A stretch of DNA of 64,000 nt, taken from Mameliella sp. MMSF_3455. GTDB lineage: Bacteria; Pseudomonadota; Alphaproteobacteria; Rhodobacterales; Rhodobacteraceae. Position 1 is the stretch's first letter. Each line of letters starts with the position of its first letter. The stretch spans positions 1 through 64,000 of the forward strand of contig NZ_JASHJL010000025.1 in NCBI RefSeq assembly GCF_030733205.1, written 5' to 3'. The translations under genes were made by a program, and so were the position numbers. The notes below the pieces were generated by a model that ran no database searches, had not been told where the DNA came from, and worked only from the letters and a program-made list of their open reading frames with translations. Positions 9,092-25,329 of this stretch are shown here, piece by piece.

Positions 9092-9586
9092 ATGACGCAA
9101 GACTTCGACCCGGCAGAGAATGATGGCCGCGCCTTCCGCGAAGCCCTGGGCCGTTTCGGCACCGGGGTGACGGTGATCACCTGCGCCACGACAACCGGAC
9201 CTCTTGGCATCACCGCCAACAGCTTTTCCTCGGTCTCCCTCGATCCGCCACTGGTGCTCTGGGCGCCGGCGAAATCCTCGTCGCGCTACCCGTTCTTCAT
9301 GGCCGCGGATCGGTTCGCGATACACGTCATGGGCGCGGACCAGTTTGAACTCTGCCGCGCCTTCGCCCGGGACGGCGATGCCTTTGACGCCTTCGACTGG
9401 CGCCTGAGCGCATCGGGTGTCCCCCTGATCGAGGGCTGCCTTGCACGTTTCGAATGCCGCCAGGCGGCGGCGCACGACGGCGGCGACCACTCTATCCTGC
9501 TGGGCCATGTAGAGCGTGTCAGTTCCCGCGAGGGCCCACCGCTGTTGTTCCAGGGCGGACGCTACGGCAGCTTTACCACCGACTGA
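9092..9586 (+). CDS. Flavin reductase family protein (FMN-binding split barrel)
   Basis: This 164-residue NAD(P)H:flavin oxidoreductase of the HpaC/FlaRed family reduces FMN or FAD, usually for a two-component monooxygenase. The family hallmarks are ALGRFGTGVTVIT at the N-terminus, GITANSFSSVSLDPPLVL (flavin-phosphate contact), a GHVERV-type strand, and a C-terminal FQGGRYG. Length is normal. No monooxygenase gene adjoins it, so its partner lies elsewhere or it supplies free reduced flavin. It stands alone on the plus strand ahead of a cytochrome gene with its own upstream region. Confidence 0.93.
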   Translation: MTQDFDPAENDGRAFREALGRFGTGVTVITCATTTGPLGITANSFSSVSLDPPLVLWAPAKSSSRYPFFMAADRFAIHVMGADQFELCRAFARDGDAFDAFDWRLSASGVPLIEGCLARFECRQAAAHDGGDHSILLGHVERVSSREGPPLLFQGGRYGSFTTD

Positions 9587-9798
9587 TCCCAAAATTCGCC
9601 GTCAGAAACGCACTGGCAGGCAGATCTGGACCAGCATCCCGGATCGGGAGCGATTTCCGCAACGGAAACCCCTTGTTTCAAAAAGCGAAAACGCGCTCTG
9701 AAAATTCCAGTCTTTCCCAAAGCTTGCCAAGCGTATGCCGATTGATCACAGTTTTGTTATCCGCAAAGCACACGGCATTTCAAAAAGACAGGTTCGTC

Positions 9799-11139
9799 AT
9801 GATCCTCAGATTTCCTTACCCATTTCCGCGCCTTTTGGCCCCTGCCCTGCTGATTTCCCTGACAGCCTTGGTGCCCACGCATACGCGCGCTGATGCGATC
9901 CTGGCGCAGGACTTCCTCGATTTTGACACCCAAGAGGCCCAGCTTGGCCGCCTGCTGTTCTATGACAAGATCCTGTCAGGCAATCAGAACATCAGCTGCG
10001 CGACCTGCCACCACCACAGCCTGCACGGTGCCGACGGCGTCAGCCTGGGCATCGGAGAAGGCGGGTCCGGTCTGGGCCCCGACCGGACCCCGGGCGAGGG
10101 CGCCCACCGGATCGCGGAACGGGTGCCCCGCAACGCGCCCGCGCTTTGGAATCTCGGACACCGCGACGTGCGCGAGATGTTCCATGACGGCCGGGTCGAA
10201 CGGATCGGCGCTGGCTATGTCGCCTTCAAGACACCCGCCAAGGAATACACGCCCGCCGGGCTGAACTCGCTGCTGGCGGCGCAGGCGCTTTTCCCGGTCA
10301 GTTCCGTGACCGAAATGGCTGGGCACCCGGACGAGAACCCGGTCAGTGCCGCCTTTGCAGAGCGCATCGACCTGGGCTGGGCGATGCTGGCCGACCGTGT
10401 GCGCGAAGTGCCGGAATACCAGCGCCTTTTCGAGGCAACATATCCCGATGTGCACGATCCCGACGACATCACCATCGTCGAGATCGTGAATGCCATCGCC
10501 GCCTTCATCGGCACCGAATGGCAAAGCTATGACAGCCCCTACGACAAGTGGCTGACCGAGGGCACGCCACTTTCGCCCGAGGCGGAGCGCGGCAGGCAAC
10601 TCTTTTTCGGCGACGCGGGCTGCTCCGGCTGCCATAACGGGCCGCGCTTTACCGATCAGAACTTCTACGCCGTGGGCGTTCCCCAGTTCGGCCCGGGCCG
10701 GCCCTTTGGCGAGGATACCATTCCGCACGATCTGGGACGGATGGAGACCACCCGCAATCCGGAGGACGCCTACAAGTTCCGCACGCCTTCGCTGCGTAAC
10801 GTGGCGCTGACCGCGCCCTATGGGCACAACGGCGCCTATCCCACCCTGCGCGCCATGATCCGCCACATGTGCGACCCGCTGACCGCCCGCAGCGAATGGA
10901 CCCCGGGCATGGCTCGCCTGCCGGACGTTGCCTGGTTGAACGATCATGACTTCCCCCTTGTCGGCGACGCGCTGGAGACGGCACAACAGGTCGCCTACCT
11001 GGATCTTTCGCCGGTCGAGATGGTCGAGGCGGATATCGATGCGCTGGAGGCATTCCTGAACGCACTGACCGGCGAAACCGCAGAAAAACGCCCGATGGGT
11101 CGGCCAGACACGGTGCCCAGCGGCCTGCCGGTGGACTGA
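9799..11139 (+). CDS. Di-haem cytochrome c peroxidase / MauG-like protein
   Basis: This 446-residue exported protein has a Sec signal peptide (about residues 1-32, cleavage near TRADA) and two c-type haem sites, CATCH at residues 67-71 and CSGCH at about 275-279. The spacing and segments such as QLGRLLFYDKILSGNQNISC and KFRTPSLRNVALTAPYGHNG are typical of the bacterial di-haem peroxidase/MauG superfamily. Family members reduce H2O2 in the periplasm or oxidise protein side chains. The start at 9799 begins directly with the signal peptide; the frame is open further upstream but that part lacks protein character. No mau genes are nearby, so the substrate is unknown and peroxidase activity is the default reading. 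Confidence 0.9.
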   Translation: MILRFPYPFPRLLAPALLISLTALVPTHTRADAILAQDFLDFDTQEAQLGRLLFYDKILSGNQNISCATCHHHSLHGADGVSLGIGEGGSGLGPDRTPGEGAHRIAERVPRNAPALWNLGHRDVREMFHDGRVERIGAGYVAFKTPAKEYTPAGLNSLLAAQALFPVSSVTEMAGHPDENPVSAAFAERIDLGWAMLADRVREVPEYQRLFEATYPDVHDPDDITIVEIVNAIAAFIGTEWQSYDSPYDKWLTEGTPLSPEAERGRQLFFGDAGCSGCHNGPRFTDQNFYAVGVPQFGPGRPFGEDTIPHDLGRMETTRNPEDAYKFRTPSLRNVALTAPYGHNGAYPTLRAMIRHMCDPLTARSEWTPGMARLPDVAWLNDHDFPLVGDALETAQQVAYLDLSPVEMVEADIDALEAFLNALTGETAEKRPMGRPDTVPSGLPVD

Positions 11140-11189
11140 CGCCGCCTTGCCCGGGCGGAATGCGAACCGCCGCGTTCCGCCCGCCTTAC

Positions 11190-11738
11190 TCAATCCATGC
11201 GGTCGATCAGCTTGCGGATGGACGGCTCCTTGTGCGGTTTCTTCTGAAGTCGCAGCAACAATTCGGCCAGTTCCGCTTCGTCGACGCGTTGAGCCGCTGC
11301 CTTGGGAGTGAACCACTTGCGCTTGCGTTCCTTGCGCTCTTTCCAGTCACGCAGCAGCTTTTCCACGAACATCGGGTAGACTTCGACCGTGCAGGGCACG
11401 ACACTGCCATCGTCCATGACCTTGCCATAGCTGTAGGTGCCGATCATCTCGGTCCCGATATGGCCCTTGGCGCCCGCCTCTTCCAGCGCCTCTATCTCTG
11501 CGGCTCGCCAGGGTTTCTTGCCATCCATCTGCCAGCCCTTGGGCATGACCCAGCGCCCGGTATCGCGCGATGTCACCATCAGGACCTTGACCTGGTCCTT
11601 GGCGTCCCTACGCATTGGCAGGGCAGCTATCTGCTCGCCTTGTGCCGACACTTGGGCCTCCTCCTGAAAAATCGGGCGGGCCGGCGTCTCCTCTCGCCGC
11701 CCCCCGTCTGAATAGTCCTTCACCCGCAGGCATCGCAT
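11190..11738 (-). CDS. NUDIX hydrolase with divergent NUDIX box
   Basis: This 182-residue protein has a NUDIX fold: VLMVTSRDTGRWVMPKGW followed by the box region starting at that Gly. The box keeps Gly1, Glu16, Glu19-Glu20 and Gly22, but Glu7 is Lys and the Arg before Glu16 is Ile. The retained Glu triad can still bind Mg2+. The sequence resembles the diphosphoinositol-polyphosphate/Ap6A-type subgroup common in alphaproteobacteria. The C-terminal part (after about 135) is Lys/Arg/Glu-rich and coiled. Substrate is unknown, probably a nucleoside diphosphate derivative. The N-terminal 30 residues are poorly typical, so a later start is possible. The 90-residue gene upstream on the same strand is 22 bases away. 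Confidence 0.85.
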   Translation of the reverse strand: MRCLRVKDYSDGGRREETPARPIFQEEAQVSAQGEQIAALPMRRDAKDQVKVLMVTSRDTGRWVMPKGWQMDGKKPWRAAEIEALEEAGAKGHIGTEMIGTYSYGKVMDDGSVVPCTVEVYPMFVEKLLRDWKERKERKRKWFTPKAAAQRVDEAELAELLLRLQKKPHKEPSIRKLIDRMD

Positions 11739-12336: not shown

Positions 12337-13059
12337 TCAGGGTCCTTGGATTTCGGCGCCAATGCCGGGGCTTGCATCCTTGAGGCCGACTCCGGTCTGC
12401 CCCGTCGCCTGCGCCATTTCGATGAGCCAGGCAAGACGTGCGGCGGCCTCCTGCGCGCTCAGACCGCCCTTGTCGTGGATGTTCGAGACGCAGTTGCGTG
12501 CGCTGTCCCGGATACCCGGTCTGGGAGCATAGGTCAGGTAGGCCCCCATGCTGTTGGATACGGTCAAACCGGGGCGCTCTCCGATCAGGATCAATACCAT
12601 CTTGGCATGCGCCGCATGGCCCACTGCATCGCCCAGCGCGACGCGCGCCTCAGAGGCCGCAAAGACAGGCGCTTGGCGCGCTTCTGGACAGCTGTTGCGC
12701 AGGGCGCGCACCAGATCCGGGGCCTGCAAGGCCAGGGCCGGCGGCGACAACCCATCCGCAAGCACAATGGCCAGATCGGGCGCCGACGGTGCAATCGTGA
12801 CCTCGGGATGCAACTTTCGTCCAAGGTCCGGTCGCCGAAGATATTCCTGACGATTGCGCGCCTGGGAACGTATGTGATGCAGAGGGCCGACCGCCGTTTC
12901 GATCCCGGCCCAATCCAACGGCTCGAAGATCGCGTCCCGCGCGCTGGCATGGTCCTCTTGAAAGGCAAGCAGACGCGACAGGGGAAGTGGGGTCCCGGCG
13001 GCGTCCAGCCGCACACGCGCCGGCGTCAGCCCCATCAAACCTGCGGGCGAGACGATCAT
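12337..13059 (-). CDS. eutC: Ethanolamine ammonia-lyase small subunit
   Basis: This 240-residue light subunit of adenosylcobalamin-dependent ethanolamine ammonia-lyase works with EutB to convert ethanolamine to acetaldehyde and ammonia. Family sequence is visible: LTPARVRLDAAGTPLPLSR, then ARDAIF, RRPDLGRKL, LVLADG-type and MVLILIGERPGL segments, SMGAYLTY, and a C-terminal RNCVSNIH. The start ATG overlaps the eutB stop as ATGA, which excludes the longer in-frame N-terminus running into eutB. It is the last gene of the ten-gene minus-strand cluster. No eutA reactivase or microcompartment shell gene lies in the window. Confidence in identity is high; the physiological role in this cluster is inferred. 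Confidence 0.95.
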   Translation of the reverse strand: MIVSPAGLMGLTPARVRLDAAGTPLPLSRLLAFQEDHASARDAIFEPLDWAGIETAVGPLHHIRSQARNRQEYLRRPDLGRKLHPEVTIAPSAPDLAIVLADGLSPPALALQAPDLVRALRNSCPEARQAPVFAASEARVALGDAVGHAAHAKMVLILIGERPGLTVSNSMGAYLTYAPRPGIRDSARNCVSNIHDKGGLSAQEAAARLAWLIEMAQATGQTGVGLKDASPGIGAEIQGP

Positions 13060-14429
13060 GCCACCAACCCGATGTCTTCGAGAACCGCTGACTGTCCCGC
13101 CAGCAACCCGCCGCCGCGGCGCATAGCTTCCAGCCACGTTTCGAATTCCGGCGCGGCGCGCAGTCCCGTCGTCTCTCGCAGATAGGCCAGGTCTTCAAAT
13201 CCGAGACTCTGGTATCCAAGCATCGGATCATCGGCGCCGGGCACGGTGATCAGGAAGTTCACGCCCGCGCTGGTCAGCAAAGTGGCGAGTACGTCCATGT
13301 CGTCCTGATCGGCCTGAACGTGGTTGGTGTAGCAGACATCGACCCCCATCGGCAGGCCCAGCAGCTTGCCGCAGAAATGGTCCTCCAATCCGGCGCGGAT
13401 GATCTGGCGGCCATCATACAGGTACTCGGGACCGATGAACCCGACCACGGTGTTGACCAACAAGGGGTCATAGGCGCGGGCAACCGCATAGGCGCGGGCC
13501 TCCAAGGTTTGTTGATCCACACCATGATGGGCATCAGCGGACAAGGCCGCGCCCTGCCCCGTCTCGAAATACATCACGTTTTGACCGACCGTACCACGGC
13601 CCGCGGACAGCCCTGCCTCCCATGCTTCTTGAAGAATTTCCAGAGAGACGCCGAACCCGTCGTTCGCATCCTGCGTTCCCGCAATCGACTGAAATATAAG
13701 GTCTATAGGGGCATTGCGCTCCAGCAGGGCCAGCGCGTTGGTGACATGGGTCAGGACGCAGGTCTGCGTCGGAATGCCCAAGGAGCCACGGATGTCGTCA
13801 AGAACGCACATAAGGCTGTAACCGTTTTCAAGATTGTCCGTGGCGGGATTGATGCCGATCACCGCGTCGCCGGCACCAAAGAGCAGCCCGTCAAGGATCG
13901 CCACCGCGATACCACGCGGATCATCCGCCGGGTGATTTGGCTGCAGCCGAGTCGACAACTGCCCCTTTCGGCCCAATGAGTTCCGAAACGCTGTCTCGAC
14001 CTCGCATTTGCGGGCAACACGGATCAGATCCTGGTTGCGCATCAGCTTGCTGACGGCGGCGACCATCTCGGACGTCAGGCCCGGTGCTGCCGCGCGCAGG
14101 CTGGCGGTGTTCGCCTGCTCGCCCAGCAACCAGTCACGCAGATCGCCGACACACATCGCCGCGAAGGGGGCAAAGGCCCGTTCGTCATGCGTGTCGATGA
14201 TCAGCCGCGTGACGTCGTCGCTCTCGTAGGGAACGACCGCTTCTTGCAGGAAGGTGCGCAGTGGCAGATCCGCCAAGGCTCGCCGCGCCGCAACGCGCTC
14301 CCTTGCCGAGGAGGCCGCAATCCCGGCAAGCTGGTCCCCGGACTTTTCCGGTGTCGCGACTGCAAGCAGACGCGCGAGGCCATCAAAAGTGAAACGCTCA
14401 CCTTGAACGATGCCGGAGTAGGTGCCCAT
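13056..14429 (-). CDS. eutB: Ethanolamine ammonia-lyase large subunit
   Basis: This 457-residue catalytic subunit forms the TIM barrel that binds ethanolamine and the B12 cofactor at the interface with EutC. Diagnostic segments include QPNHPADDPRGIAVAILDG, DAVIGINPATDN, HHGVDQQTLEARAYAVAR, VGFIGPEYLYDG and CYTNHVQADQDD. Length matches the usual 450-465. ATG at 14429 is chosen because it overlaps the stop of the upstream kinase gene as TGATG and begins MGTYSG, a normal EutB start; an upstream extension in the same frame would overlap that gene by 279 bases. Coupling to kinase, hydrolase and importer genes is unlike the classical eut operon. Confidence 0.97.
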   Translation of the reverse strand: MGTYSGIVQGERFTFDGLARLLAVATPEKSGDQLAGIAASSARERVAARRALADLPLRTFLQEAVVPYESDDVTRLIIDTHDERAFAPFAAMCVGDLRDWLLGEQANTASLRAAAPGLTSEMVAAVSKLMRNQDLIRVARKCEVETAFRNSLGRKGQLSTRLQPNHPADDPRGIAVAILDGLLFGAGDAVIGINPATDNLENGYSLMCVLDDIRGSLGIPTQTCVLTHVTNALALLERNAPIDLIFQSIAGTQDANDGFGVSLEILQEAWEAGLSAGRGTVGQNVMYFETGQGAALSADAHHGVDQQTLEARAYAVARAYDPLLVNTVVGFIGPEYLYDGRQIIRAGLEDHFCGKLLGLPMGVDVCYTNHVQADQDDMDVLATLLTSAGVNFLITVPGADDPMLGYQSLGFEDLAYLRETTGLRAAPEFETWLEAMRRGGGLLAGQSAVLEDIGLVA

Positions 14430-15370
14430 CAGAGCCTCGCCAGATGCAGCGCCCAATCCGGGTCTTCCATGATCGACCGGGCACGCATCTTCTTCCACAT
14501 GCCGTATTTGTGGAAATCGAATTCCAGTCGAGAGATCTTGAGCTGCACCATGGACCACAGGGCCCATTTCACATCGGCAAGCGCCTTGTGAACGGTGATC
14601 CGGGACACGATTTCGGGGCGGACTTCGCCAAAGTATTCCTCGATCAGTTCCAATTCGCGGTCCGGGGTAAAGAACATCTCGCCGAACCAGATGCCCAGAT
14701 CGTAGCAACGGTCGTTCATCGAGCAGTATTCGTAGTCGATCAACATGATCGACCCGTCCTCGGCGATCATGAAATTGCCCGGCATCGGGTCGTTGAAGGA
14801 TGGCACCATATCATAACCCGAGGCCTCGATAGCCTCTTTGGCCAGCTGCGTGTTGAGCATCAGCCAGCTGTCTTCGCGGTACTTCCGGCCACCCAACGTC
14901 GCGATCTGCCCGGCATGTTCGTCGATCATGTCGAAGATCGTCTTGGTCAGTCCCAACTCGGGCAGTCCGTGCATGGTTCGATAGGCGCCGATGGCCGCGC
15001 GACAATTGCCAAGATCGAGAAAGTCAGAGTTCGTCGAGGCGCGACGGTCTGGCAGGAAGTCGTTGATCTCGACCCCGCGGTGGGCCAGGTCGTCATGCAC
15101 GCGCGGTCCGAGGCCCGCCGCTGCGGCCTTGCGCGATGCATCCATTGCCGCCTCGCGGTCGATGAACATCTCGGTGCCGTTTCCGGGAACCTTGACGAAC
15201 CAATCGCCACCGTCCTCGCTTTGCACGCGCCAGTTCTCGTTGGAGATACCGCCCGACACGGGCCCGTAGGTGATGCCTTTGCCGCCACCGAACAACGGGG
15301 CATCGCGAATGATCCGCTCGATGGTCTCTTCCATCTCGTGCACGGCAGAGCCAAGGGGTTTCATCATCAT
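14429..15370 (-). CDS. APH/choline-ethanolamine kinase-like phosphotransferase
   Basis: This 313-residue small-molecule kinase has the aminoglycoside-phosphotransferase fold and is closest in look to choline/ethanolamine kinases. It shows a Gly-rich N-lobe (YGPVSGGISNENW), a Lys in WFVKVPG, the catalytic-loop region SFNDPMPGNFMI (the Brenner-type HxDxxxxN becomes NDPMPGN), the metal-binding DYEYCSMNDRCYDLG, and a helical C-lobe. The start at 15370 overlaps the stop of the preceding phosphotransferase gene as ATGA; two further ATGs follow at once. Directly upstream of eutB, it may phosphorylate an amino-alcohol substrate or precursor. The substrate is not proven. Confidence 0.88.
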   Translation of the reverse strand: MMMKPLGSAVHEMEETIERIIRDAPLFGGGKGITYGPVSGGISNENWRVQSEDGGDWFVKVPGNGTEMFIDREAAMDASRKAAAAGLGPRVHDDLAHRGVEINDFLPDRRASTNSDFLDLGNCRAAIGAYRTMHGLPELGLTKTIFDMIDEHAGQIATLGGRKYREDSWLMLNTQLAKEAIEASGYDMVPSFNDPMPGNFMIAEDGSIMLIDYEYCSMNDRCYDLGIWFGEMFFTPDRELELIEEYFGEVRPEIVSRITVHKALADVKWALWSMVQLKISRLEFDFHKYGMWKKMRARSIMEDPDWALHLARL

Positions 15371-16299
15371 GCGGCCACCTCCGTGATGCGCAGTTTCTCC
15401 TCGAATGCAGGATGGCGCAGCATCACGCGCAGGCGTAGCAGGCGCCATTCCCCGTATTTCAGCCATTCCACCGAGCTGCGTTCCGACGTGTGCGCCATCA
15501 ACCGCGCCCAGAGCGCGTGCAACAGGTCGTCCACATGCGACCACAGCCGCGCGCGGGCAAAAAGCATCGGATCAAAGCTCCCGTGATAGGCGGTGAAGGC
15601 TGCAACCATGTCGGATTCAAGATCCGTCACTTCGGCCATCAGCGCCCCCAGGTCGTATAGAGGATCATTCATGCCGGCCCGGTCGAAATCGACCAGCAGC
15701 ACCTCGTTGCCGGGGCCGAGCAGGATATTCGATGCGCTGCCATCGTTGCGGCAGGGCGCAAGGGGCGCGCTTTCGGCCAGGGCTTCGGCCTGCGCTATCA
15801 GGCGGCGCAGGTAGAGGATGTCGTCCGGCAAGGGAATGCCATTCGCGCCATGCGCTTCGATCACCCGGTCGATCTGGGCGAAGGGATCGAAACGCCCGGG
15901 CAGAGCCGGCCCTTCATGTTGCGCCTTGAGCGCGTGCATCACGGCGCTCAGGGTCTCGGCATCTTGCAGATGATGCTGGCGGGCCGTGAAAAAACCGGAG
16001 GGCGCCGCGTCCATGGCAAGGGCGCAGGTCGCGGGATCGGACCACAGTACGCTGGGCCCCGCCACCGAAAGCTTGGCTCCGGCGATGGCTGTTTCGGGAT
16101 CGAAGAATGGCATCACTTCCGGATGCATCCGTTTGACGAATGTCCCGCCGACGATGGCAGAGCGACTTTCCAGCGCCTGGTAGCTGGGCGAGGCCAGGGC
16201 GGCGGGGCCGGCCTGCGCCGCCTCCGGGTCCAGCCCGGCGGCCAGAAGCGTGTCGGCCATCATGGCGTCAGTGACGGTTCCTGTGCTGGGCGCAGTCAT
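15367..16299 (-). CDS. Second APH-type phosphotransferase
   Basis: This 310-residue protein has the same kinase fold as its neighbour but with clearly divergent sequence. The catalytic loop reads CRNDGSASNILLG and the metal-binding segment VDFDRAGMNDPLYDLG. The N-lobe is shorter and atypical (GTFVKRMHPEVM supplies a candidate Lys), so its nucleotide-binding loop is less obvious. It lies between the M20 hydrolase and the other kinase with 4-base overlaps on both sides. Two different kinases in one operon suggest sequential or heteromeric action on related substrates. Alternative reading: one of the pair is a non-catalytic partner. Function beyond phosphotransferase is unassigned. Confidence 0.82.
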   Translation of the reverse strand: MTAPSTGTVTDAMMADTLLAAGLDPEAAQAGPAALASPSYQALESRSAIVGGTFVKRMHPEVMPFFDPETAIAGAKLSVAGPSVLWSDPATCALAMDAAPSGFFTARQHHLQDAETLSAVMHALKAQHEGPALPGRFDPFAQIDRVIEAHGANGIPLPDDILYLRRLIAQAEALAESAPLAPCRNDGSASNILLGPGNEVLLVDFDRAGMNDPLYDLGALMAEVTDLESDMVAAFTAYHGSFDPMLFARARLWSHVDDLLHALWARLMAHTSERSSVEWLKYGEWRLLRLRVMLRHPAFEEKLRITEVAA

Positions 16300-17579
16300 G
16301 CGGCACCTCCTGTCTGGTCCAGATTCCCGCCAGCCGCGTCGATCCGGCGAAGCATTTCCAAAAGCACGTCGCCCCCTGCAGCGAGATCTTCGGGGGTCGT
16401 GTATTCGTCGTTGCGGTGAATGACGCCGCCGACGGACGGCACGGCGAACACCAGCGACGGCAGGATCGCGTTCAGGGCCACCGCGTCATGGCCCGCCGTG
16501 GTATCCAGTTGCATCAAAGGCAGGTCAAAGTCCCGCGCCGCGGCTTCGCATAGCAAAACGAGGCGCTCATCGAATTTCCCGGCGGGGCGTCGGTCGACCG
16601 CCACGATGCGCGCCTCGACCGAGGCACTGGACGCCAGCCCCGGCAAGGAATCGCGCAACTCGGCCTCGGCCCATTCCAGAACCTCTGCCTCTGGCGCACG
16701 CAATTCACAGAAGAGAACGGCCTTGCCAGGAACGATGTTCGGCGAATTCGGAGAGACATCCAATCGTCCGACCGAGGTATAGAGCGTGTCCTGCGCGTCT
16801 TCGCTCAGCGCGCGTACCTTGGTGATGATATGTGCCGCGCCCAGCAGTGCATCGCGGCGGTCCTCCATCGGGGTTGGGCCAGTGTGGTTCTGCTCTCCGG
16901 TCACTTCGATGCGGACCTTGAGCGCCCCCCAATGCCGGACAAAGGGGGCGATGCGCGCGCCCGAGGTCTCCATCTTGTCGTCGCCCTCGATATGGATTTC
17001 GAGGTAAATGTCGGGCTGCGGGGACCGGCTGTCGCCCATGAATCCGGTACGGATCAGCTCTTGTTCGACCGACTTGCCATCGCGATCGACGCGCGACAGA
17101 GCAAAATCGCGGGTCACGCTGCCGGCAAAGACCGAAGACCCCAGCAGAGACGGCTGAAAGCGGGCGCCTTCCTCGTTCATCCAGTCCGCGACCACGTAAT
17201 TGCAGCGGGGCGCCTCGCCCCGCTCGGCCATGTCGGCTCGCAGGGTTTCGATGGCGGCAAGGGCCGCGACCACCCCATAGGCACCGTCGAAACGGCCACC
17301 CTTGGGTTGGCTGTCAAGGTGCGACCCCACCATGACAAGGGGCGCATCCGGCCCGGCAAGGTCGATCCGACCGAACAGGTTGCCTATGTTGTCGACAAGA
17401 ACAGTGTACCCCCGCGCCTCCAGTTCCGACCGAAACCAGTTCCGGGCATCGCGGTGAGCGTCGGTCAGCACCGGGCGGTCGACGCCGCCGTCACCGGTAT
17501 CGCCAAAGGTGGAAACCTGCGCCATCAAGGCGTGCAGAAGATCCGCGTCGATGTGGCAAAGGTCGATGGTGTCCGGCAT
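16296..17579 (-). CDS. M20-family Zn-dependent amidohydrolase (carbamoylase/AllC-like)
   Basis: This 427-residue binuclear-zinc hydrolase belongs to the N-carbamoyl-amino-acid hydrolase/allantoate amidohydrolase group. Metal-site segments are intact: VGSHLDSQPKGGRFDG (His, Asp), WMNEEGARFQPSLLGS (Glu pair), LEIHIEGD (His) and the distal HRNDEYTTPED (His). The dimerisation domain carries NHTGPTPMEDRRDAL and TTAGHDAVALN. Family members cleave C-N bonds of carbamoyl or acyl amides and ureides. The start at 17579 overlaps the ABC ATPase stop as TGATG. In this operon a plausible task is to free an amine, perhaps ethanolamine, from an imported amide. That substrate is inference. Confidence 0.92.
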   Translation of the reverse strand: MPDTIDLCHIDADLLHALMAQVSTFGDTGDGGVDRPVLTDAHRDARNWFRSELEARGYTVLVDNIGNLFGRIDLAGPDAPLVMVGSHLDSQPKGGRFDGAYGVVAALAAIETLRADMAERGEAPRCNYVVADWMNEEGARFQPSLLGSSVFAGSVTRDFALSRVDRDGKSVEQELIRTGFMGDSRSPQPDIYLEIHIEGDDKMETSGARIAPFVRHWGALKVRIEVTGEQNHTGPTPMEDRRDALLGAAHIITKVRALSEDAQDTLYTSVGRLDVSPNSPNIVPGKAVLFCELRAPEAEVLEWAEAELRDSLPGLASSASVEARIVAVDRRPAGKFDERLVLLCEAAARDFDLPLMQLDTTAGHDAVALNAILPSLVFAVPSVGGVIHRNDEYTTPEDLAAGGDVLLEMLRRIDAAGGNLDQTGGAA

Positions 17580-19390
17580 CAGGACTCTCCTGGGTCGTTG
17601 AGGTGGCAGGCTGCCAGCGCCTGCCCGCCGCGGCTTCTCAGGCGCGGGTTTTCGGTCAGGCAGCGGTCGAAGGCCTGGGGACAGCGCCCTGCAAAGGCAC
17701 ATCCCGGCGGCAGGTCGATAGGCGATGGTGGCTCGCCCTCCATAAGGCAGTCCTCCGGGCGGTAACGCCGCTCTTCCAGCGTCGGTGCGGCAGACAAGAG
17801 CGCGCGGCTATAGGGATGGCCCGGATCGAAGAACAGGCGCTCGTTCGGGGCAACCTCGACGGTTTCACCCAGGTACATGACGGCAATGCGCGAACAGACC
17901 TGCCGCACCATCGTCAGGTCATGGCTGATGAAGATGTAGGTGAATCCGTGCTGTGCCTGCAGCCGTTCGAACAGGTTCAGCAATTTGCCCTGTTCGGTCT
18001 GATCCAGCGCGGACAGCGTCTCGTCCATGATCAGCAGCCGCGGCTCGAGGACCATGGCACGCGCGACGTTGAGACGCTGACGCTGACCCGCCGATAAACC
18101 CGTGGGCAGGCTGTCATAGAGATCCGTGGGCAGACCGACCTCGGACATGGCCGCGCGGGCGCGATCACGGCGTTCGGCGCGATTGCCGATGGCGTGGATC
18201 TTCAGCGGCTCTTCGAGGATCGCACCGATGGCGCTTTGCGGAGGCAACGAGCCGTAGGGGTCCTGCAAGACCAGCTGAAACTTGCGCCGCAGCGCACGCA
18301 AACGTTTGGGGCTTGCCTCTCCGACGTTCTCGTCCTCGAAAAAGATCGACCCGGCGTCCGGCCGCTCCAATCCGGTCAAAAGCCGCATCAACGAGGATTT
18401 CCCGCAGCCTGATTCCCCAACGATGCCAAAGTTGTCACCGGGGAAGACATCGAATTCCACGTTGCGGACGGCCTGGACCAGGGCCTTGCCCGAAGCGCTG
18501 CGCGTTTCGTAGTGCTTGGCAACGCCGCGCACGGACATGATGGCGCGCCGGTCGCGATCCTGCGGTTGGGCCTGATCGCGTCCCTCGGCCCAGAGGGTCG
18601 GCAATTCCTCGATCAGCTTGTGGGTGTAGCCGTGCTGAGGCGTGTCGATCAGCGCATCTGGCGCCTGGCGCTCCACGACGCGACCGTCATGCAGGACCAT
18701 CACCTCGTCCGCTGCATCGCAGGCCACCGGCAACGAAGAACAGATGAACAGCACTGCGGTCGAGAAATCCTCGTTGAGTTCGCGCATCAGTTTGAGGATC
18801 TGGGCCGCCACCGTAACATCAAGCGGTTGGGTGATGTTGTCTGCAATCAGAAGCGCGGGATCGGACATCAGCGCATCGACGATCATGGCGCGTTGCATCA
18901 TGCCGCCGGAATACTGGAAGGGATATTCGTGAAACCGGCGTTCCGCGGCGGGGATCTTGACCGCCTCCAGCAAGCGAATGGCTTTTTCCCGGGCGTCGGC
19001 GGCACTGATCTCCGGGCGGACGGCGCGCAGTTTCTCGACCAGTTGCGCGCCAACGGTCATCGTCGGGTCAAGCGCACCGGCCGGGTTGCCACCTACATAT
19101 GCGATCTCGCGACCGGCCAGGGTGCGCGCATAGGCCGGATCCTTCAGCAGATCACGCCCCTCGATCAGGATCTCGCCGCCAGTGACCGCCAAAGGTTCTG
19201 ACAGCCAGCTGGCCAGGGCGCGCGCCAGCACCGTCTTGCCTGAACCGCTTTCGCCGATGACCGACAGGATCTGCCGTGGCGCAAGGTCGAAAGAGACATC
19301 CTTCAGGACGTCACGGCCTTCGCCGGTGAGGGTGACGGTGAGATTGCGGACCGACAGCAACGTCTTGGTCTGTACCATATCAAGCGACAT
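17579..19390 (-). CDS. Fused DppD-DppF-like ABC ATPase with degenerate first half
   Basis: This 603-residue protein holds both ATPase domains of a peptide/nickel-type importer. The second domain is canonical: Walker A GESGCGKS (325-332), Q-loop QDPYGSL (Gln376), LSAGQ, Walker B MDE (Glu457) and ISHD (His490), plus the C-terminal oligopeptide domain with CAFAGRCP. The first keeps Walker A GESGSGKT (46-53) and SGGMMQR. Its Q-loop Gln position is Gly101, the catalytic Glu is Asn185 (IADNITQPLD) and the switch His position is Ser218 (FICSSL). Only one of the two composite sites can therefore hydrolyse ATP normally. It sits between the permease and hydrolase genes, 1 base from the former. Confidence 0.93.
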   Translation of the reverse strand: MSLDMVQTKTLLSVRNLTVTLTGEGRDVLKDVSFDLAPRQILSVIGESGSGKTVLARALASWLSEPLAVTGGEILIEGRDLLKDPAYARTLAGREIAYVGGNPAGALDPTMTVGAQLVEKLRAVRPEISAADAREKAIRLLEAVKIPAAERRFHEYPFQYSGGMMQRAMIVDALMSDPALLIADNITQPLDVTVAAQILKLMRELNEDFSTAVLFICSSLPVACDAADEVMVLHDGRVVERQAPDALIDTPQHGYTHKLIEELPTLWAEGRDQAQPQDRDRRAIMSVRGVAKHYETRSASGKALVQAVRNVEFDVFPGDNFGIVGESGCGKSSLMRLLTGLERPDAGSIFFEDENVGEASPKRLRALRRKFQLVLQDPYGSLPPQSAIGAILEEPLKIHAIGNRAERRDRARAAMSEVGLPTDLYDSLPTGLSAGQRQRLNVARAMVLEPRLLIMDETLSALDQTEQGKLLNLFERLQAQHGFTYIFISHDLTMVRQVCSRIAVMYLGETVEVAPNERLFFDPGHPYSRALLSAAPTLEERRYRPEDCLMEGEPPSPIDLPPGCAFAGRCPQAFDRCLTENPRLRSRGGQALAACHLNDPGES

Positions 19391-19391
19391 G

Positions 19392-20303
19392 TCAGGCTCC
19401 TGCGTAGATCTTGTTGCGGGCGCGTTCGAGGGCCGCCCCCATCAGGTTGACCGAGGTCAGCGTGAGGACCAGAAAGACACCCGGCATCGTGGCAATCCAC
19501 CACGCGTTCATCAGGTATTTGCGCCCATCTGCGATGATGTTGCCGAAGGTGGGTGTCGGCGGCTGCACCCCGAGCCCCAGAAACCCCAGCACGGATTCGA
19601 AAATCATCATGCGTGCGATGTCGAGAACGGCGACGAAGACCAGCGGGGGCAGCACCAGCGGCAAAAGCAGGGTAAACATGATCCGCCAGTCCGTTGCGCC
19701 CAGAACCATGGCACCGCGGACGAATTCCTTTTTGCGCTCGGCCATGACGGTCGACCGCATGACCCGCGCATAGACCGGCCAGCCCGCAAGTCCCAGGACG
19801 AGGATAATGGAGGGGATCGTCGGTCGGGATACACCAAGGATCGTGATGGCGAGAATGATCATCGGGATCGAAAGCTGTGCATCCGTGAGGCGCATCAAGA
19901 CCGTATCGACGCGCCCGCCGAAATATCCGGCGAACAGGCCGATCATCGCGCCAACCGCCACCATCAAGATCGTGGTCGAGATCCCGATCAGCAGCGAGTA
20001 GCGCAGGCCGACGAGCGTCCTGGCCAGCATGTCCCGCCCCAGCTGGTCGGTACCCAACGGATGAGACCAACTCCAGCCCTCGCCCATCAGAATGGGCGGG
20101 GACAGTTTTGCACGGATGTTCATCTTTGTCGGATCGACGTCAGACAGCCAAGGATAGAGAGAAGCGGCCGCGACCAGCAAGGTGAACACGATCAGGCCGA
20201 TGCGGAACTCGGTAGAAGCAAATGCCTCGGACCAGATGCGCGCAGAGATCGTCTTGGCACGGGCCTTGGACGGCAGGTCGGGAGAGATGTCTATGGCACT
20301 CAT
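19392..20303 (-). CDS. Peptide-type ABC transporter permease (DppC-like)
   Basis: This 303-residue inner-membrane permease has an N-terminal cytoplasmic tail, a first transmembrane helix at about 35-52, a periplasmic loop containing HPLGTDQLGRDMLART (the OppC/DppC signature), then five more helices. The coupling-helix EAA region is GAMVLGATDWRIMF. It pairs with the DppB-like protein to form the translocation pore for the substrate delivered by the binding protein. The start overlaps the upstream permease stop as TGATG, and the ATPase gene follows after 1 base. It is a normal family member. Confidence 0.95.
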   Translation of the reverse strand: MSAIDISPDLPSKARAKTISARIWSEAFASTEFRIGLIVFTLLVAAASLYPWLSDVDPTKMNIRAKLSPPILMGEGWSWSHPLGTDQLGRDMLARTLVGLRYSLLIGISTTILMVAVGAMIGLFAGYFGGRVDTVLMRLTDAQLSIPMIILAITILGVSRPTIPSIILVLGLAGWPVYARVMRSTVMAERKKEFVRGAMVLGATDWRIMFTLLLPLVLPPLVFVAVLDIARMMIFESVLGFLGLGVQPPTPTFGNIIADGRKYLMNAWWIATMPGVFLVLTLTSVNLMGAALERARNKIYAGA

Positions 20304-21283
20304 CAGTATTCCAGCCTCGGGTCGATGGTCGTCGCGGCAAGATCGACGATGATGTTGATAAGGACGAAGGCAGCGGCGGTGACGATGGCGATGCCCTGGA
20401 TCAGGGGAAAGTCGCGCTGCATCACGGCGTTGATGGTCAACAGGCCGAGTCCGGGATAATCGAAGATGAATTCGATAACGAGAACGCCGCCCAGCAACAT
20501 GGAAAACTGCACGCCAAGCAGGTTCAGGAGCGGCACCGATGAATTCTTCAGCGCGTGTCGAAAAATGATCTGGTTGCGCGTCAAGCCGCGCACCGCCGCA
20601 ATGTCGATGAAGCTCTGGCTCATGACGCCGGCGACGGAGACGGTCAGGGTGCGGATGATGAATGGCGCGATTTCGATCGCCAGCACGAAGGCGGGCAGGA
20701 TCGTATAGGCGAACCCTTCATAACCGATGGCCGGCACCAGTTTCAGCTTCACCGACAGCAGCAGCGCCAGCACGATACCTAGCCAGAAATTCGGGAGGCT
20801 GACGAAGACCGACGATATGTACAGGGCAAAGCGATCCGGCCATCCTCCGGGTCTGAGACCGCCCCAAATTCCAATGGGCAAGGCGATCAACAGGGCGAAA
20901 GCCATCGCCAGTACCGCCAGTTGCAGCGTCATCGGTGCCGTTTCGGCGATCAGGGTCCAGACCTCGGCCCTTTCGCTACGCGTACTGTCGTCGAAGCTGG
21001 CACCGCCCACCGCCGCACCATTGGCGGGACGCACGAAGCTTTGCCCAAGATCGCCCTGCAGAATACCGCCGATGTAGCGACCGAATTGTATGTAGATCGG
21101 ATCACGCAGCCCCATGTCAGAGGCGATTTCCTCGATCAGCGCCTCGGGCGCCATACCACCGGCCATCAACCGGACGGGGTCGCCGGGCACGACCCTGAGC
21201 AAGGTGAAGATCAGGGCCGATACCAGGAAGACGATCAGCGCCCCCTGGGCGAGTCGCCTTGCGAGAAATCGAGCTAGGAACAT
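20303..21283 (-). CDS. Peptide-type ABC transporter permease (DppB-like)
   Basis: This 326-residue permease has the DppB topology of six helices. The N-terminal motif is FLARRLAQGALIVFLVSALIF and RVVPGDPVRLM (the conserved PGDP). The EAA coupling loop is AAVRGLTRNQIIFRHALKN, and the C-terminus is VDLAATTIDPRLEY. ATG at 21283 is preferred over an in-frame ATG 14 codons upstream because GGAG lies about 8 bases before it and the family begins here. The gene follows the binding-protein gene by 60 bases and overlaps the next permease by one base. Confidence 0.95.
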   Translation of the reverse strand: MFLARFLARRLAQGALIVFLVSALIFTLLRVVPGDPVRLMAGGMAPEALIEEIASDMGLRDPIYIQFGRYIGGILQGDLGQSFVRPANGAAVGGASFDDSTRSERAEVWTLIAETAPMTLQLAVLAMAFALLIALPIGIWGGLRPGGWPDRFALYISSVFVSLPNFWLGIVLALLLSVKLKLVPAIGYEGFAYTILPAFVLAIEIAPFIIRTLTVSVAGVMSQSFIDIAAVRGLTRNQIIFRHALKNSSVPLLNLLGVQFSMLLGGVLVIEFIFDYPGLGLLTINAVMQRDFPLIQGIAIVTAAAFVLINIIVDLAATTIDPRLEY

Positions 21284-21343
21284 GGGCTTCTCCAGAGGGC
21301 AGGAGTGGAAGGTCGAGGGGGCCAAGAGGCCCCCTCTTCAGGG

Positions 21344-22915
21344 TCAGCTCAGCGTGGTTTTCGACGCGTCGGCCGTACCGTCGGGATAGATGAACAAGTC
21401 CTGCACGTCGGCCCGCACGCCGTGCATCAGGACGGAGGTGAACAGGCTGTAGGCCGGAACCTTGTCCGCCAGCATGGGCATCAGGTTGGTCTGCAAGCTC
21501 TCACGGCGGGCTTCGAGGCTCGGAGCGTCACGTTCCGCATCCAGCGCCGCGTCGATCTCTGGATCCTCGATGCCGCAGATCCGCTTGGACGTGGAGTGGA
21601 AGTGGGTCCGCAGGACAAGGTCGGGCTCGGGCGATGCAGACGTCCAGCCGCAGTCGATCATGTGGCCGGGGCCACCGCCCGGACGGTCGTACAGCCGCTC
21701 GTTCCACGCCGCCGTTTCCATCACGTTCAGCTTGACCGGGAACCCCTGCTCCTGAAGCAGCACGGTGATCAGTTCACCGTATTCCTTGGTCTTGGGGTAG
21801 AAGCCGGTCGAGGTGATGTATTCAAGCTCTGGCAGACCTTCGCCGCCCGGAAAACCCGCCTCTGCCAGCAGGCGCTGACACTCTTCGGGATCATATTCGG
21901 GATAGTTCTCAAGATCGGTGTAACCGAACTTGATCGGCGAAACGAAGTTCGAAGACGGCTCACCCGCGGTGCCCATGACCTCGAGGATCAGAGAGCGGTC
22001 GATGGCATGGGCCGCAGCCTTGCGCACCAGTGGGTTGTCGAACGGCGGCTTGGAGCAGCGGAACCAGAGATACTTGTTCTCGACCGACACCGCCCGGTTC
22101 AAAACGATGCCTTCCTCCTTGGCCAGCGTTTCCACCTGTTCGGGTTCAAGGCGTTCGATCACGTCGGCCTGTCCGTTCATCAGGGACAACATCCGTGTCG
22201 TTGCATCCCCGACATAAGAGAAAGTCACGCCCGGGATCTGAGGCGCACCGCGGAAGTAATCCGGGAAAGCCTCCATGACGGTGTCATTGCCACGTTGCTC
22301 GACGAACTTGAACGGCCCGGTGCCGTTCAGGCGCTGGTTCAGAACACCATTCGGGCCCTGTGCGATGTCCTTTGCGGACATGATCGGCAAATAGGACGCG
22401 AGGAAGATGAACATCGCCGCGCCGTAACCGCCCTTGGTGGTGTCGACGATCACTGTGTAGTCGTCTGGCGTGGTCACTTCGAAAGTGTCGGCGAATCCCG
22501 GGTAAACTTGGCGCGCGCGCGCCGGCTGGGCCCCGTATTCGAAGGTGGCCTTGACGTCCTTGGCACTGAACGGCTCTCCGTCGTGGAAGGTCACGCCCTC
22601 GCGCAGCTTGATTTCCAGGTGGGTCGCGTCCAGCAGGTTCAGTTCGGTCGCGAGTTCATAGACCACCTCGTCGGGGTTGTCCGGCATCATCGGCGCGCGG
22701 GTCAGAAAACCCATCACGAAGCCTTCGATATTGAACTGGGACAACGTTGTATGCGCCATCGGGTCCCAGTTGCCGGTGATGTTCTCGGCCGAAAGGAACA
22801 CCAACGGCCGGCTCGCCTGCGCCATCGCGGGGCTGACAAGAAGATTGGTGTTTAGCTGCACCGCGCCGGCCCCCAGGCCTGCCGCAGCTGTCCGCATGAA
22901 GGTTCTTCTGTCCAT
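21344..22915 (-). CDS. ABC transporter substrate-binding protein, SBP family 5
   Basis: This 523-residue periplasmic receptor belongs to the oligopeptide/dipeptide/nickel class (SBP_bac_5). The N-terminus DRRTFMRTAAAGLGAG carries a twin arginine and ends in an AMAQA cleavage site, so Tat or Sec export is likely. Class signatures include LREGVTFHDGEPFSAKDV, GTGPFKF and a late DCGWTSASPEPD. ATG at 22915 is chosen for the signal peptide and for a strong AGGAG 9 bases upstream; the frame upstream is antisense to the phosphatase gene. It is the specificity component of the cluster's importer. Ligand cannot be read from sequence; this class takes peptides, amides, sugars and opines. Confidence 0.95.
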   Translation of the reverse strand: MDRRTFMRTAAAGLGAGAVQLNTNLLVSPAMAQASRPLVFLSAENITGNWDPMAHTTLSQFNIEGFVMGFLTRAPMMPDNPDEVVYELATELNLLDATHLEIKLREGVTFHDGEPFSAKDVKATFEYGAQPARARQVYPGFADTFEVTTPDDYTVIVDTTKGGYGAAMFIFLASYLPIMSAKDIAQGPNGVLNQRLNGTGPFKFVEQRGNDTVMEAFPDYFRGAPQIPGVTFSYVGDATTRMLSLMNGQADVIERLEPEQVETLAKEEGIVLNRAVSVENKYLWFRCSKPPFDNPLVRKAAAHAIDRSLILEVMGTAGEPSSNFVSPIKFGYTDLENYPEYDPEECQRLLAEAGFPGGEGLPELEYITSTGFYPKTKEYGELITVLLQEQGFPVKLNVMETAAWNERLYDRPGGGPGHMIDCGWTSASPEPDLVLRTHFHSTSKRICGIEDPEIDAALDAERDAPSLEARRESLQTNLMPMLADKVPAYSLFTSVLMHGVRADVQDLFIYPDGTADASKTTLS

Positions 22916-22974
22916 TTTTTCTCTCCTGTTGGGTCTTGCGTTATGAATTTTCAAAGTCCCCCAATGAGCGGGGG

Positions 22975-23769
22975 TCAGGCTGGCTCTGCCAGGCGGAGGC
23001 GGGCCAATTCTGCGAGGATCTGCGCGTGAAGTTCGGGCGTGGCAGAGGCCACGACATCGCCGGTCGATCCGGCATGCAGGGCTTGCCCCTGCCAATCGGT
23101 GATGCATCCGCCCGCCCCCTGCACGATCTGAACGACCGGCAAGTAGTCGTAGGGTTCCAACCCGCATTCCAGGACGAGGTCGCAATAGCCCGAGGCCAAG
23201 AGTGCGTAGTTGTAGCAATCTCCGCCGAACCGCAGCAGGCGCACGCGATCCCGGAGCATGGAGAAGATCGGCGCCCGAGGCCCGGCAAACAGCATGGGAT
23301 CGGTGGTATAGGCATAGGCGCGCGCGAGGTCGGTGCAACCACTGGTGCGGATGGCCACGCCGTTCAGGGTGCTGTCGTACCCGTCGATACCACACCAGCG
23401 CTCACCGGTTGCCGGCATGTCGATCTGGCCCAGGCGCGGCTTTCCCTCGTCCAACAGGGCAATCAGACCACCGAACAGCGGATGCCCCGTGACAAAGCTC
23501 TTGGTGCCATCGATGGGATCAACGACCCAGACAAAGCGGCGGTCGAGACCTTCGGTCCCGTGCTCTTCACCGTAGATGCCGTGATCGGGAAAGCGTTCCG
23601 TAATGCGCTCACGCAGGTAGGTCTCGATCATCCGGTCCGCGATGGTGACCGGGCTGTCGTCAGCCTTGTGTTCGACGCTAAGCTCGTTGCGGAAGTGACT
23701 GAGGGCCAGCTTGCCCGCGGCGTCTGCGGTCGTCTGAGCGAATGAAAGTGCGTCGGCTAGGTCGAGCAT
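22975..23769 (-). CDS. Inositol-monophosphatase-family phosphatase (HisN-like)
   Basis: This 264-residue Mg2+-dependent phosphatase has the IMPase-fold motifs DDSPVTIADRMIE (first metal-site region), GEEHG, VVDPIDGTKSFVTG (Asp cluster) and the C-terminal GLEPYDYLPVVQIVQGAGG. Overall flavour (DPIDGTKSF, HPLFGGLIAL) is closest to histidinol-phosphatase-type members. ATG at 23769 follows a GAGGGG ribosome site; an upstream extension is low-complexity intergenic DNA. It is the first gene of the minus-strand cluster, 59 bases before the binding-protein gene. With two kinases in the same operon, it may remove a phosphate that they add or that arrives on the substrate. True substrate is unknown. Confidence 0.9.
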   Translation of the reverse strand: MLDLADALSFAQTTADAAGKLALSHFRNELSVEHKADDSPVTIADRMIETYLRERITERFPDHGIYGEEHGTEGLDRRFVWVVDPIDGTKSFVTGHPLFGGLIALLDEGKPRLGQIDMPATGERWCGIDGYDSTLNGVAIRTSGCTDLARAYAYTTDPMLFAGPRAPIFSMLRDRVRLLRFGGDCYNYALLASGYCDLVLECGLEPYDYLPVVQIVQGAGGCITDWQGQALHAGSTGDVVASATPELHAQILAELARLRLAEPA

Positions 23770-24047
23770 AAGCCCCTCTTCATGGTTCCTGAGCGACCCG
23801 TCACGACGGATCCCCTTCACAATGCAACCATTGGAACCAAAAAATCCACACATTTCCTCACAAACACATGCAAAACCACTAAATGCGCTATTTTTTGGCA
23901 TTTAGGCGACGTATGAGCGCGATATCGATGCTAACCACACACAAAACCACAACACACATCCACAACGCATGCGGTTTTCCGTGGACTTTTGGCGGAAGAA
24001 TGGCCGATACACTGACCAAATACAGGCGGGCAAAGGGAACGCCGGAC
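23770..24047. promoter_or_regulatory. Divergent CA-rich control region between phosphatase and DeoR genes
   Basis: This 278-base region separates the ten-gene minus-strand operon from the regulator. It is lower in GC than its flanks and carries repeated A/C-rich words. AACCAC occurs at about 23874, 23933 and 23945. ATCCACA occurs at about 23844 and 23959. There are several CACACA runs, and TTTTTTGG at about 23891. On the minus strand these read as TGTG/GTGGTT repeats. DeoR/GlpR-family repressors commonly bind short tandem repeats near their own promoter, so this is the probable operator for both directions. The individual site boundaries are not resolved. Confidence 0.5.
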
Positions 24048-24833
24048 ATGATTTCCAAGCAAACACACACATCCATGTGGTCGCATGAGCGACAATCTGC
24101 GATTCTTTCGGACCTGCTGCGGGACGGAAAGGTTCAGACCAACGCATTGGCCGATCGCTTCAACGTTTCCCGCGAAACGATACGGCGCGACCTTCTGGAC
24201 CTTGAAAAGAGGGGGAGCCTTCGCCGCGTGCATGGCGGCGCAGTGCCCGTGGCCCAGGACGCACGCCCCGAGGCCGCCTTTCGCGACCGCCTGGTAGAAA
24301 GACCGGAAGTGAAACAGGCCATAGGGCGCCGGGCTGCAGAGCTGATTCCGGCAGGCGCATCACTCTTCGTCGACGCGGGCACGACAACCCGCGCATTTGC
24401 CCTTGCGTTGACTCAGCGCTCTGACCTGCGCGTCATAACCAACTGCATCGAAATCGCCCAGATCCTGGCCCCCGTCGGAGGCATCGACACTTTGCTCTTG
24501 GGTGGCAGCCCGCATGGCGAAGTCCCGGCGACATTCGGGGAACTGACCCTGTCGGAAATCGATCGCTTCCTGACCGACTATTCGGTTGTCGGGCCCGTTG
24601 GGCTGAGCATCGAGCGCGGCGCGACCGATTACGAACTGCATGAAGCCGAAGTTGCGCGAAAGATGATAGACCGCTCCAACACCTGCATCATGCTGTGTGA
24701 CGCCCGCAAGATCGGAGCGGAAAGCCGGGTATCGATCTGCGACATCGACCGCATCGCGCATGTCGTCACGGATGTGCAAACAGAAAGCAATTTCGCCCCT
24801 GCCGGCATCGAGGTCCACCGAGCCTCGGTTTAG
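24048..24833 (+). CDS. DeoR/GlpR-family transcriptional regulator
   Basis: This 261-residue protein has an N-terminal HTH_DeoR domain (about 10-65): ERQSAILSDLLRDGKVQTN, DRFNVSRETIRRDLLDLEK, LRRVHGGA. A DeoR C-terminal sensor domain follows (FVDAGTTTRAFA, TNCIEIAQIL, LLGGSPHGE, ARKMIDRSNTCIMLCDARKIG). The sensor fold usually binds phosphorylated sugars or related phosphates. ATG at 24048 has AAAGGGAA upstream and suits the family length; an upstream ATG at 24000 is possible. Placed divergently from the importer/eut cluster, it is its likely repressor. A phosphorylated intermediate made by one of the cluster's kinases would be a logical inducer (inference). Confidence 0.93.
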   Translation: MISKQTHTSMWSHERQSAILSDLLRDGKVQTNALADRFNVSRETIRRDLLDLEKRGSLRRVHGGAVPVAQDARPEAAFRDRLVERPEVKQAIGRRAAELIPAGASLFVDAGTTTRAFALALTQRSDLRVITNCIEIAQILAPVGGIDTLLLGGSPHGEVPATFGELTLSEIDRFLTDYSVVGPVGLSIERGATDYELHEAEVARKMIDRSNTCIMLCDARKIGAESRVSICDIDRIAHVVTDVQTESNFAPAGIEVHRASV

Positions 24834-25252: not shown

Positions 25253-25329
25253 TGGCGGACCGAGGAGGATTCGAACCCCCGACCCCTTGATTCGTAGTCA
25301 AGTACTCTATCCAGCTGAGCTATCGGTCC
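25253..25329 (-). tRNA. tRNA-Arg (ACG)
   Basis: The minus strand folds as a cloverleaf. The acceptor stem GGACCGA pairs with TCGGTCC. The D-arm is GCTCAGCTGGATAGAGT, and the anticodon stem TTGA/TCAA encloses loop CTACGAA with anticodon ACG. The T-arm has GGTTCGAATCC. Discriminator G is followed by an encoded CCA (25253-25255). ACG is the arginine tRNA whose first base is normally edited to inosine by TadA. Confidence 0.97.

Follow-up and report, generated by a model that had tools for sequence, protein, structure and literature searches.

A conserved kinase pair with ethanolamine ammonia-lyase as an optional neighbour: a candidate catabolic gene cluster for an ethanolamine conjugate

The window analyzed here is a stretch of 64,000 nucleotides from Mameliella sp. 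MMSF_3455 (Rhodobacteraceae; RefSeq assembly GCF_030733205.1, contig NZ_JASHJL010000025.1, positions 1 to 64,000). It contains ten open reading frames, all on the minus strand (12337-23769), which encode a phosphatase, a solute-binding protein, two permeases, a fused ATPase, an M20-family hydrolase, two kinase-like proteins (termed here kin2 and kin1), and both subunits of ethanolamine ammonia-lyase, EutB and EutC. Comparison with other genomes reveals that the constant unit of this arrangement is the kin2-kin1 pair, around which the importer and eutBC vary. We lean towards regarding the cluster as serving the catabolism of an ethanolamine N-conjugate, or that of a very close amino alcohol; the likely product of its core is ethanolamine or phosphoethanolamine.

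The conserved core and its sinks

A kin2 scan of genome contigs yielded eleven loci, and plasmid searches returned 94 records (with kin1; chiefly Agrobacterium and Rhizobium) and 85 records, sixteen loci being opened. L002-L011 were located via kin2 and the others via kin1, so that the presence of the respective query gene is given by construction; L012 was dropped as a weak match. In nine loci (L002-L010) the genes for the importer, M20, kin2, kin1 and the phosphatase occur together, and in eight of them a DeoR-family regulator gene is divergent at the equivalent place; in the ninth, from the gammaproteobacterium Halotalea alkalilenta, the phosphatase gene is reversed and the DeoR gene follows kin1. 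Among the 39 clusters on the kin1 tree, which are those fetched and not a random sample, M20 lies beside the kinases in 35 (the others being L011, L047, L048 and L053); the kinases of Thioclava and Mesorhizobium have no adjoining M20, and on an Arthrobacter plasmid kin2-kin1 is accompanied by a separate M20 gene, two genes after kin1. An amidase-signature gene is found near the kinases in 13 of the 39, in Pseudosulfitobacter between M20 and kin2.

The usual companions of the core are a DeoR regulator, a phosphatase and an importer, in most clusters a peptide-type ATP-binding cassette (ABC) system. Clusters of Pseudomonas, Pantoea and Arthrobacter possess instead a small protein and a sodium:solute symporter, and a branched-chain-type ABC system is located nearby in Shinella sumterensis and L109. 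In L022 (Pseudomonas) the HisN-type phosphatase is replaced by an unrelated HAD protein (best model histidinol-phosphatase, 244 bits, below the 280 cut-off); by family assignment, both unrelated types belong to families acting on an amino-alcohol phosphate.

The core is distributed among Rhodobacterales, Rhizobiaceae (root-inducing and opine-catabolic plasmids among them), Acetobacteraceae, gammaproteobacteria and one Arthrobacter. In overlapping genome samples, each of which includes the window's genome, kin1 was detected at E 1e-60 in 3 of the 385 genomes sampled from the class and in 7 of the 292 from the order, and a broader model at E 1e-50 matched 14 of 398 genomes of the phylum, with strong matches (E 1e-137 or better) in six. 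Few genomes have the trait, but they are widely spread. Conserved adjacency of eutBC with the hydrolase and both kinases had been set beforehand as a check in an earlier note on this DNA, made from the sequence alone; the hydrolase and kinase genes are syntenic across genera and classes, in both Alphaproteobacteria and Gammaproteobacteria, and not confined to one strain, and since the gene order is conserved in other genera, the cluster is more than a chance assembly. The root-inducing plasmid pRi1724 and the opine-catabolic plasmid pAoF64/95 hold the whole core (L041, 2274-13725, with L077, 11657-14853; L042 with L078), with eutBC and a gene of the N-formylglutamate-amidohydrolase family divergent from it. 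Searches of an open-access library, in which subscription papers are few, found no description of the cluster.

In L011 (Mangrovicoccus, 10001-11727) the cluster looks broken, with matches to an entire kin1 but only to the end of kin2 and to the initial 85 residues of EutB, owing either to decay or to an assembly fault. A distant kin1-like group (L110-L116, E ~1e-50), kept outside all counts, has a dimethylglycine-dehydrogenase-like protein (DAO and GCV_T domains) near the kinase in all five members scanned (L111, L112, L114, L115, L116), some of them also with DeoR-type and HisN-type genes; this group may belong to a sister route in which N-methylated amino alcohols or similar N-methylated compounds are used.

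Complete eutBC adjoins the core in 10 of the 39 clusters (the window, L002, L003, L006, L008, L021, L024, L041, L042 and L107), and L011 and L027 contain only fragments of EutB. Its position takes no fewer than three forms: behind kin1, behind the phosphatase gene, and divergent beside the N-formylglutamate-amidohydrolase-family gene. The EutB proteins of the clusters branch at three separate points of the EutB tree, and their origin as a single clade was rejected by the approximately unbiased test (p 1e-15, on a tree without the EutBs of L107 and L042). On the kin1 tree the eut label changes nine times, eight changes being forced by starred branches; there, L011 and L027 count as eut despite holding fragments only, the "no eut" label of L026 is weak, its stretch stopping 94 bp past kin1, and the long rows L045, L053 and L048 are unsure in placement. 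By a rough calculation that ignores relatedness (one eutB in a 4.5 Mb genome), the probability that random placement would bring eutB to a distance of 15 kb or less from kin1 in ten of the 39 clusters is ~1e-13.

At twelve other eutBC loci (L079-L090, five of them from core-holding genomes) neither kin1 nor kin2 was found, which rules out that eutBC loci in general carry the kinases. Some of these loci have other reminiscent genes: an M20 homolog (34%) adjoining eutC in L089, a DeoR-type gene (39%) adjoining eutC and an amidase (33%) ~7 kb away in L088, and GS-like (glutamine synthetase-like; 26%) and DeoR-type (29%) genes in L085. Relatives carrying the cluster include Poseidonocella pacifica, whose genome has a second EutB, and Paracoccus laeviglucosivorans. 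No EutB was found in eight genomes that possess the core. A fixed ten-gene pathway is ruled out by these eight genomes and by the 29 of 39 clusters without complete adjoining eutBC.

Other genes that could dispose of ethanolamine or its phosphate occur beside the core. In L053 kin1 is directly followed by a class-III pyridoxal phosphate (PLP)-dependent enzyme, whose first and second solved relatives, 5g4i (E 1e-100) and 6tor (E 5e-93), comprise a bacterial phospholyase and an ethanolamine-phosphate phospho-lyase, the next group following at E ~1e-45; its score with PRK06148 (422 bits) is below the full-length cut-off. L108 contains a homolog 53% identical to that of L053, with an adjoining GS-like gene. 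A phospho-lyase homolog is thus found beside the core in two clusters (L053, L108), and gamma-glutamylation-type genes in three: the Arthrobacter plasmid (L045) encodes GS-like, C26-hydrolase, aldehyde dehydrogenase (ALDH) and short-chain dehydrogenase/reductase proteins, L049 a GS-like protein 48% identical to the Arthrobacter one together with an ALDH, and L108 the GS-family protein alone. The GS-like proteins of L045 and L049 score 320 and 331 bits with PF00120, and no EutB was found in the genome of L049.

These arrangements resemble two known routes. For the gamma-glutamylation of ethanolamine by GlnA4 and its partners in Streptomyces coelicolor, PMC9397018 reports four enzyme classes, all of which are matched in L045 (GS-like, dehydrogenase, ALDH, amidohydrolase-type) and two in L049; the likeness is one of enzyme class, and in contrast to the route as given there, these genes are joined to kinases and hydrolases and are absent from the cluster of the window. 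With the route comprising ethanolamine kinase and phospho-lyase, the clusters share the amino-alcohol kinase fold and, in L053 and L108, the phospho-lyase homolog, but they have two kinases and an amide-type hydrolase, and in the window EutBC takes the place of the lyase. A genome-wide search at E 1e-60 gave no phospho-lyase homolog for the organism of the window. At the same threshold a homolog is present in all eight EutB-less core genomes (seven at E 1e-100), in one of five genomes with complete eutBC in the cluster, and in five of six other core genomes; for 8/8 versus 1/5 the Fisher test gives p 0.007, the groups being small, partly related and drawn up with the EutB results already in view. 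This trend fits alternative sinks.

Because eutBC joined the core repeatedly and other ethanolamine-type disposal genes adjoin it, the hydrolase and kinase genes appear to be tied to ethanolamine disposal. The earlier proposal, according to which an ethanolamine conjugate is imported, processed and deaminated, gained partial support, and its fixed set of ten genes had to be given up, with complete eutBC in 10 of 39 clusters.

Enzymes and gene order in the window

The eutC gene (12337..13059, minus strand, as are all ten) matches PF05985 with 246 bits and NF003971 with 249 bits (cut-off 230); its reading frame opens at 13137, and the ATG at 13059 is the inferred start. The large subunit, eutB (13056..14429), matches PF06751 with 682 bits, exceeds its curated cut-off with 678 versus 554 bits, and has 2qez and 3abo as best solved relatives. 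Residues R161, Q163, N194, E289, F331 and D364, which we take, from the E. coli enzyme, to be those of the substrate site, are conserved in all 30 rows of the EutB alignment.

EutB is the only one in its genome. The earlier note had pointed to the lack of the shell, EutA and EutH of classical eut operons. As regards the first two, this extends to the entire genome sequence, although parts of it may be missing: there were no matches to bacterial microcompartment shell proteins, and EutA was represented by one 19.6-bit fragment, below the 27-bit cut-off, so that nothing above the cut-off suggests a microcompartment or EutA elsewhere; EutH was not among the proteins searched for. The assembly fits neither the long nor the short definition of an eut operon. 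Short eut operons, as given in PMC9397018, comprise a transporter and eutBC, sometimes with eutR, and share with the cluster of the window EutBC without shell or EutA, yielding acetaldehyde and ammonia. Where they have an ethanolamine permease and EutR, the cluster of the window has an ABC importer of the peptide type together with M20, the kinase pair, a phosphatase and a DeoR gene; a further difference is that eutBC itself is optional. The combination of a transporter and eutBC with an eutR-type regulator is absent from the cluster; permeases for ethanolamine encoded at other sites of the genome lay outside this search.

The kin1 gene (14429..15370) encodes a phosphotransferase of the choline/ethanolamine-kinase type (PF01633 72 bits, cut-off 29; PF01636 53 bits), and kin2 (15367..16299) a second phosphotransferase of the APH type, which passes the cut-off of PF01636 only (38 versus 23 bits). 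The predicted models of both are nearest to 3dxq and the choline kinase LicA, with a predicted local distance difference test score (pLDDT) of 81.5 for kin2 and below 50 in the catalytic-loop region of kin1; macrolide, spectinomycin and amicoumacin kinases rank lower in the fold lists. In kin1 K60, D194, N199 and D212 are invariant in 20 rows, and in kin2 K51, N186 and D199 are invariant and D181 almost so in 10 rows; presumably these Lys, Asp, Asn and Asp residues are catalytic. Judging from the models, both proteins are closest to the choline/ethanolamine-kinase fold, with a predicted phosphorylation activity.

The M20 enzyme (16296..17579; NF006772 620 bits, cut-off 424; TIGR01879 270 bits, cut-off 204) is a member of the hydantoinase/carbamoylase family, with N-carbamoyl-amino-acid hydrolases among its nearest solved relatives. 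The alignment of 18 cluster members contains 63 invariant columns; H232, N281 and R294, which we assume to correspond to the carboxylate-binding residues of carbamoylases, are kept. This enzyme is linked to other amidohydrolases of the family by its family assignment and by the residues that the 18 members conserve; it differs from them in adjoining two amino-alcohol-kinase-like genes.

Upstream in the operon follow a fused two-domain ABC ATPase of the Dpp/Opp type (17579..19390; two ABC_tran domains and oligo_HPY), permeases of the DppC (19392..20303; PF00528, BPD_transp_1, 96 bits) and DppB type (20303..21283; 124 bits with the same model), a periplasmic solute-binding protein of family 5 (SBP_bac_5; 21344..22915; PF00496 237 bits) with one solved relative, without named function, at E 1e-30, and a HisN-type phosphatase of the inositol monophosphatase family (22975..23769), which exceeds the equivalog model TIGR02067 with 285 versus 275 bits and has 5eq7 as best solved relative. 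All ten frames and their families agree with the earlier description of genes running in one direction, mostly with overlaps of 1-4 bases. According to the gene coordinates, six of the nine junctions overlap: eutC/eutB by 4 bp (presuming the inferred eutC start), eutB/kin1 by 1, kin1/kin2 by 4, kin2/M20 by 4, M20/ATPase by 1, and permease/permease by 1. ATPase and permease are 1 bp apart, and the binding protein and phosphatase genes are each separated by ~60 bp.

A possible pathway and competing explanations

Since three unrelated kinds of sink lie beside one core, its product is probably ethanolamine or phosphoethanolamine. The order of steps that we propose (import, phosphorylation, hydrolysis, dephosphorylation, deamination) is the one that uses every part. 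The peptide-type importer would bring in the conjugate, and the two kinases of the choline/ethanolamine-kinase fold would phosphorylate its hydroxyl(s), trapping it inside the cell; the phosphorylated conjugate would be the signal for the DeoR regulator. M20, in some species together with or replaced by an amidase-signature enzyme, would then cleave an amide-type bond to yield phosphoethanolamine, from which the HisN-type phosphatase would produce ethanolamine, which EutBC would split to acetaldehyde and ammonia. Other species would complete the route with a phospho-lyase acting on phosphoethanolamine, or by gamma-glutamylation. What the comparison establishes is the conserved core with its gene families and its recurrent pairing with different ethanolamine-type disposal genes; we infer which conjugate is used, which bond is cleaved, how the steps follow one another and what the regulator binds. 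Phosphorylation would precede hydrolysis, and the phosphate on the ethanolamine arm may take the place of a carboxylate at the M20 residues. By analogy, a phosphorylated intermediate would suit a regulator of the DeoR type: AccR, FucR-like in that source, is released by a phosphosugar (PMC6341043); the main text of that paper nowhere refers to ethanolamine, choline, amidase or eutB.

Several observations weigh against this interpretation. Complete eutBC is missing beside the core in the 29 clusters mentioned, and the presence of EutB is scattered on the kin1 tree (93 of 500 shuffles are as low). The phosphatase is kept in EutB-less clusters, for example L004, L005, L007, L009, L054 and L055, where a phospholyase should render it needless, and the stretches of L019, L020 and L023 have no annotated phosphatase gene. 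Two kinases exceed the need of a single hydroxyl, which suggests two hydroxyls or two substrates. The GS-like proteins score below all equivalog cut-offs. The phospholyase contrast weakens to p 0.03 with the stricter cut-off, 0.05 with relatives collapsed, and 0.04 against all eutB-bearing core genomes; phospholyase homologs are in any case frequent, occurring in 57 of the order's 121 genomes, and those of the EutB-less genomes do not adjoin the core.

The released amino alcohol could be a different one, such as 2-aminopropanol, serinol or similar, handled by EutBC, the phospholyase and the gamma-glutamyl route. The family assignments leave the substrate unfixed, and several amino alcohols serve as substrates of APH-type kinases and of class-III phospholyases; we nevertheless regard this as rather unlikely, given that the presumed substrate-site residues of EutB are canonical in 30 of 30 rows and that the nearest named phospholyase acts on ethanolamine phosphate. 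The family of M20 and its solved relatives agree also with a ureide route, in which a true carbamoylase would release ammonia and carbon dioxide from an N-carbamoyl compound, leaving the other half to the kinases and EutBC, and urease genes indeed adjoin the cluster in L017 and L052, and an allophanate hydrolase gene in L022. These urea genes, however, differ from the cluster in strand or operon and concern 3 of 39 clusters, and in 13 clusters an amidase-signature enzyme joins or replaces M20, which makes this route improbable.

It is less probable still that the core handles an unrelated compound and that eutBC is a nitrogen-scavenging passenger sharing its promoter: the many clusters without eutBC and the eight core genomes without EutB would be expected, but separate EutB lineages joined the core, the twelve other eutBC loci are devoid of kin1 and kin2, and other ethanolamine-type disposal genes occupy the equivalent place. 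Inactivation of an imported antibiotic by the APH-type kinases and the amidohydrolase is very improbable; it has in its favour the antibiotic kinases lower in the fold lists, above which choline/ethanolamine kinases rank, and the importer, phosphatase and ammonia-releasing deaminase suit the use of a nutrient.

What would be new in the proposed pathway for an ethanolamine conjugate is a catabolic route with known ethanolamine enzymes at its end and an unfamiliar entrance, the enzyme families themselves being known. If true, it would constitute an undescribed entry of ethanolamine into bacterial metabolism, with EutBC ending a conjugate pathway rather than sitting in an ethanolamine-uptake operon, and, with the binding protein, the two kinases and the hydrolase, would offer precise targets in the search for a nutrient common to plant-associated and marine bacteria, whose users include carriers of root-inducing and opine-catabolic plasmids. 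A broader picture, possible but doubtful, is that of a horizontally moving, widespread, phosphorylation-dependent amide pathway, in which the phosphate tag would serve as an anionic handle for M20, and one core would feed three unrelated disposal modules, a B12-dependent lyase, a PLP-dependent phospho-lyase and gamma-glutamylation. Marine and plant-associated bacteria would then share a widespread nutrient, the conjugate, that has so far escaped notice.

Regulatory region and genomic setting

The DeoR-family gene (24048..24833; best model AgaR, 157 bits, below the cut-off of 260) had been described as facing the operon; it is located on the plus strand and diverges from it. Between them lies an inverted motif, TCCACA-N16-GTGGA (23959..23985, plus strand), a candidate DeoR operator, which is kept in aligned intergenic regions: among those of Rhodobacterales the half CACA is found in 12 of 12 and GTGG in 11 of 12, the pattern having been picked after viewing the alignment. 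A second, palindromic TCCACA...GTGGA site occurs inside kin1 (14494-14514), either by chance or as an internal operator.

The G+C content of the cluster region is 62.2%, compared with 64.1% and 65.4% in its two flanks, and a tRNA-Arg (acg) gene is located at 25253-25329, ~420 bp past the DeoR gene. Both features would fit acquisition of the cluster as a block, without proving it, the tRNA gene being a possible insertion site. Outside the cluster, the translation of the reading frame at 9454-11139 resembles a di-haem protein of the cytochrome c peroxidase type, with CxxCH motifs.

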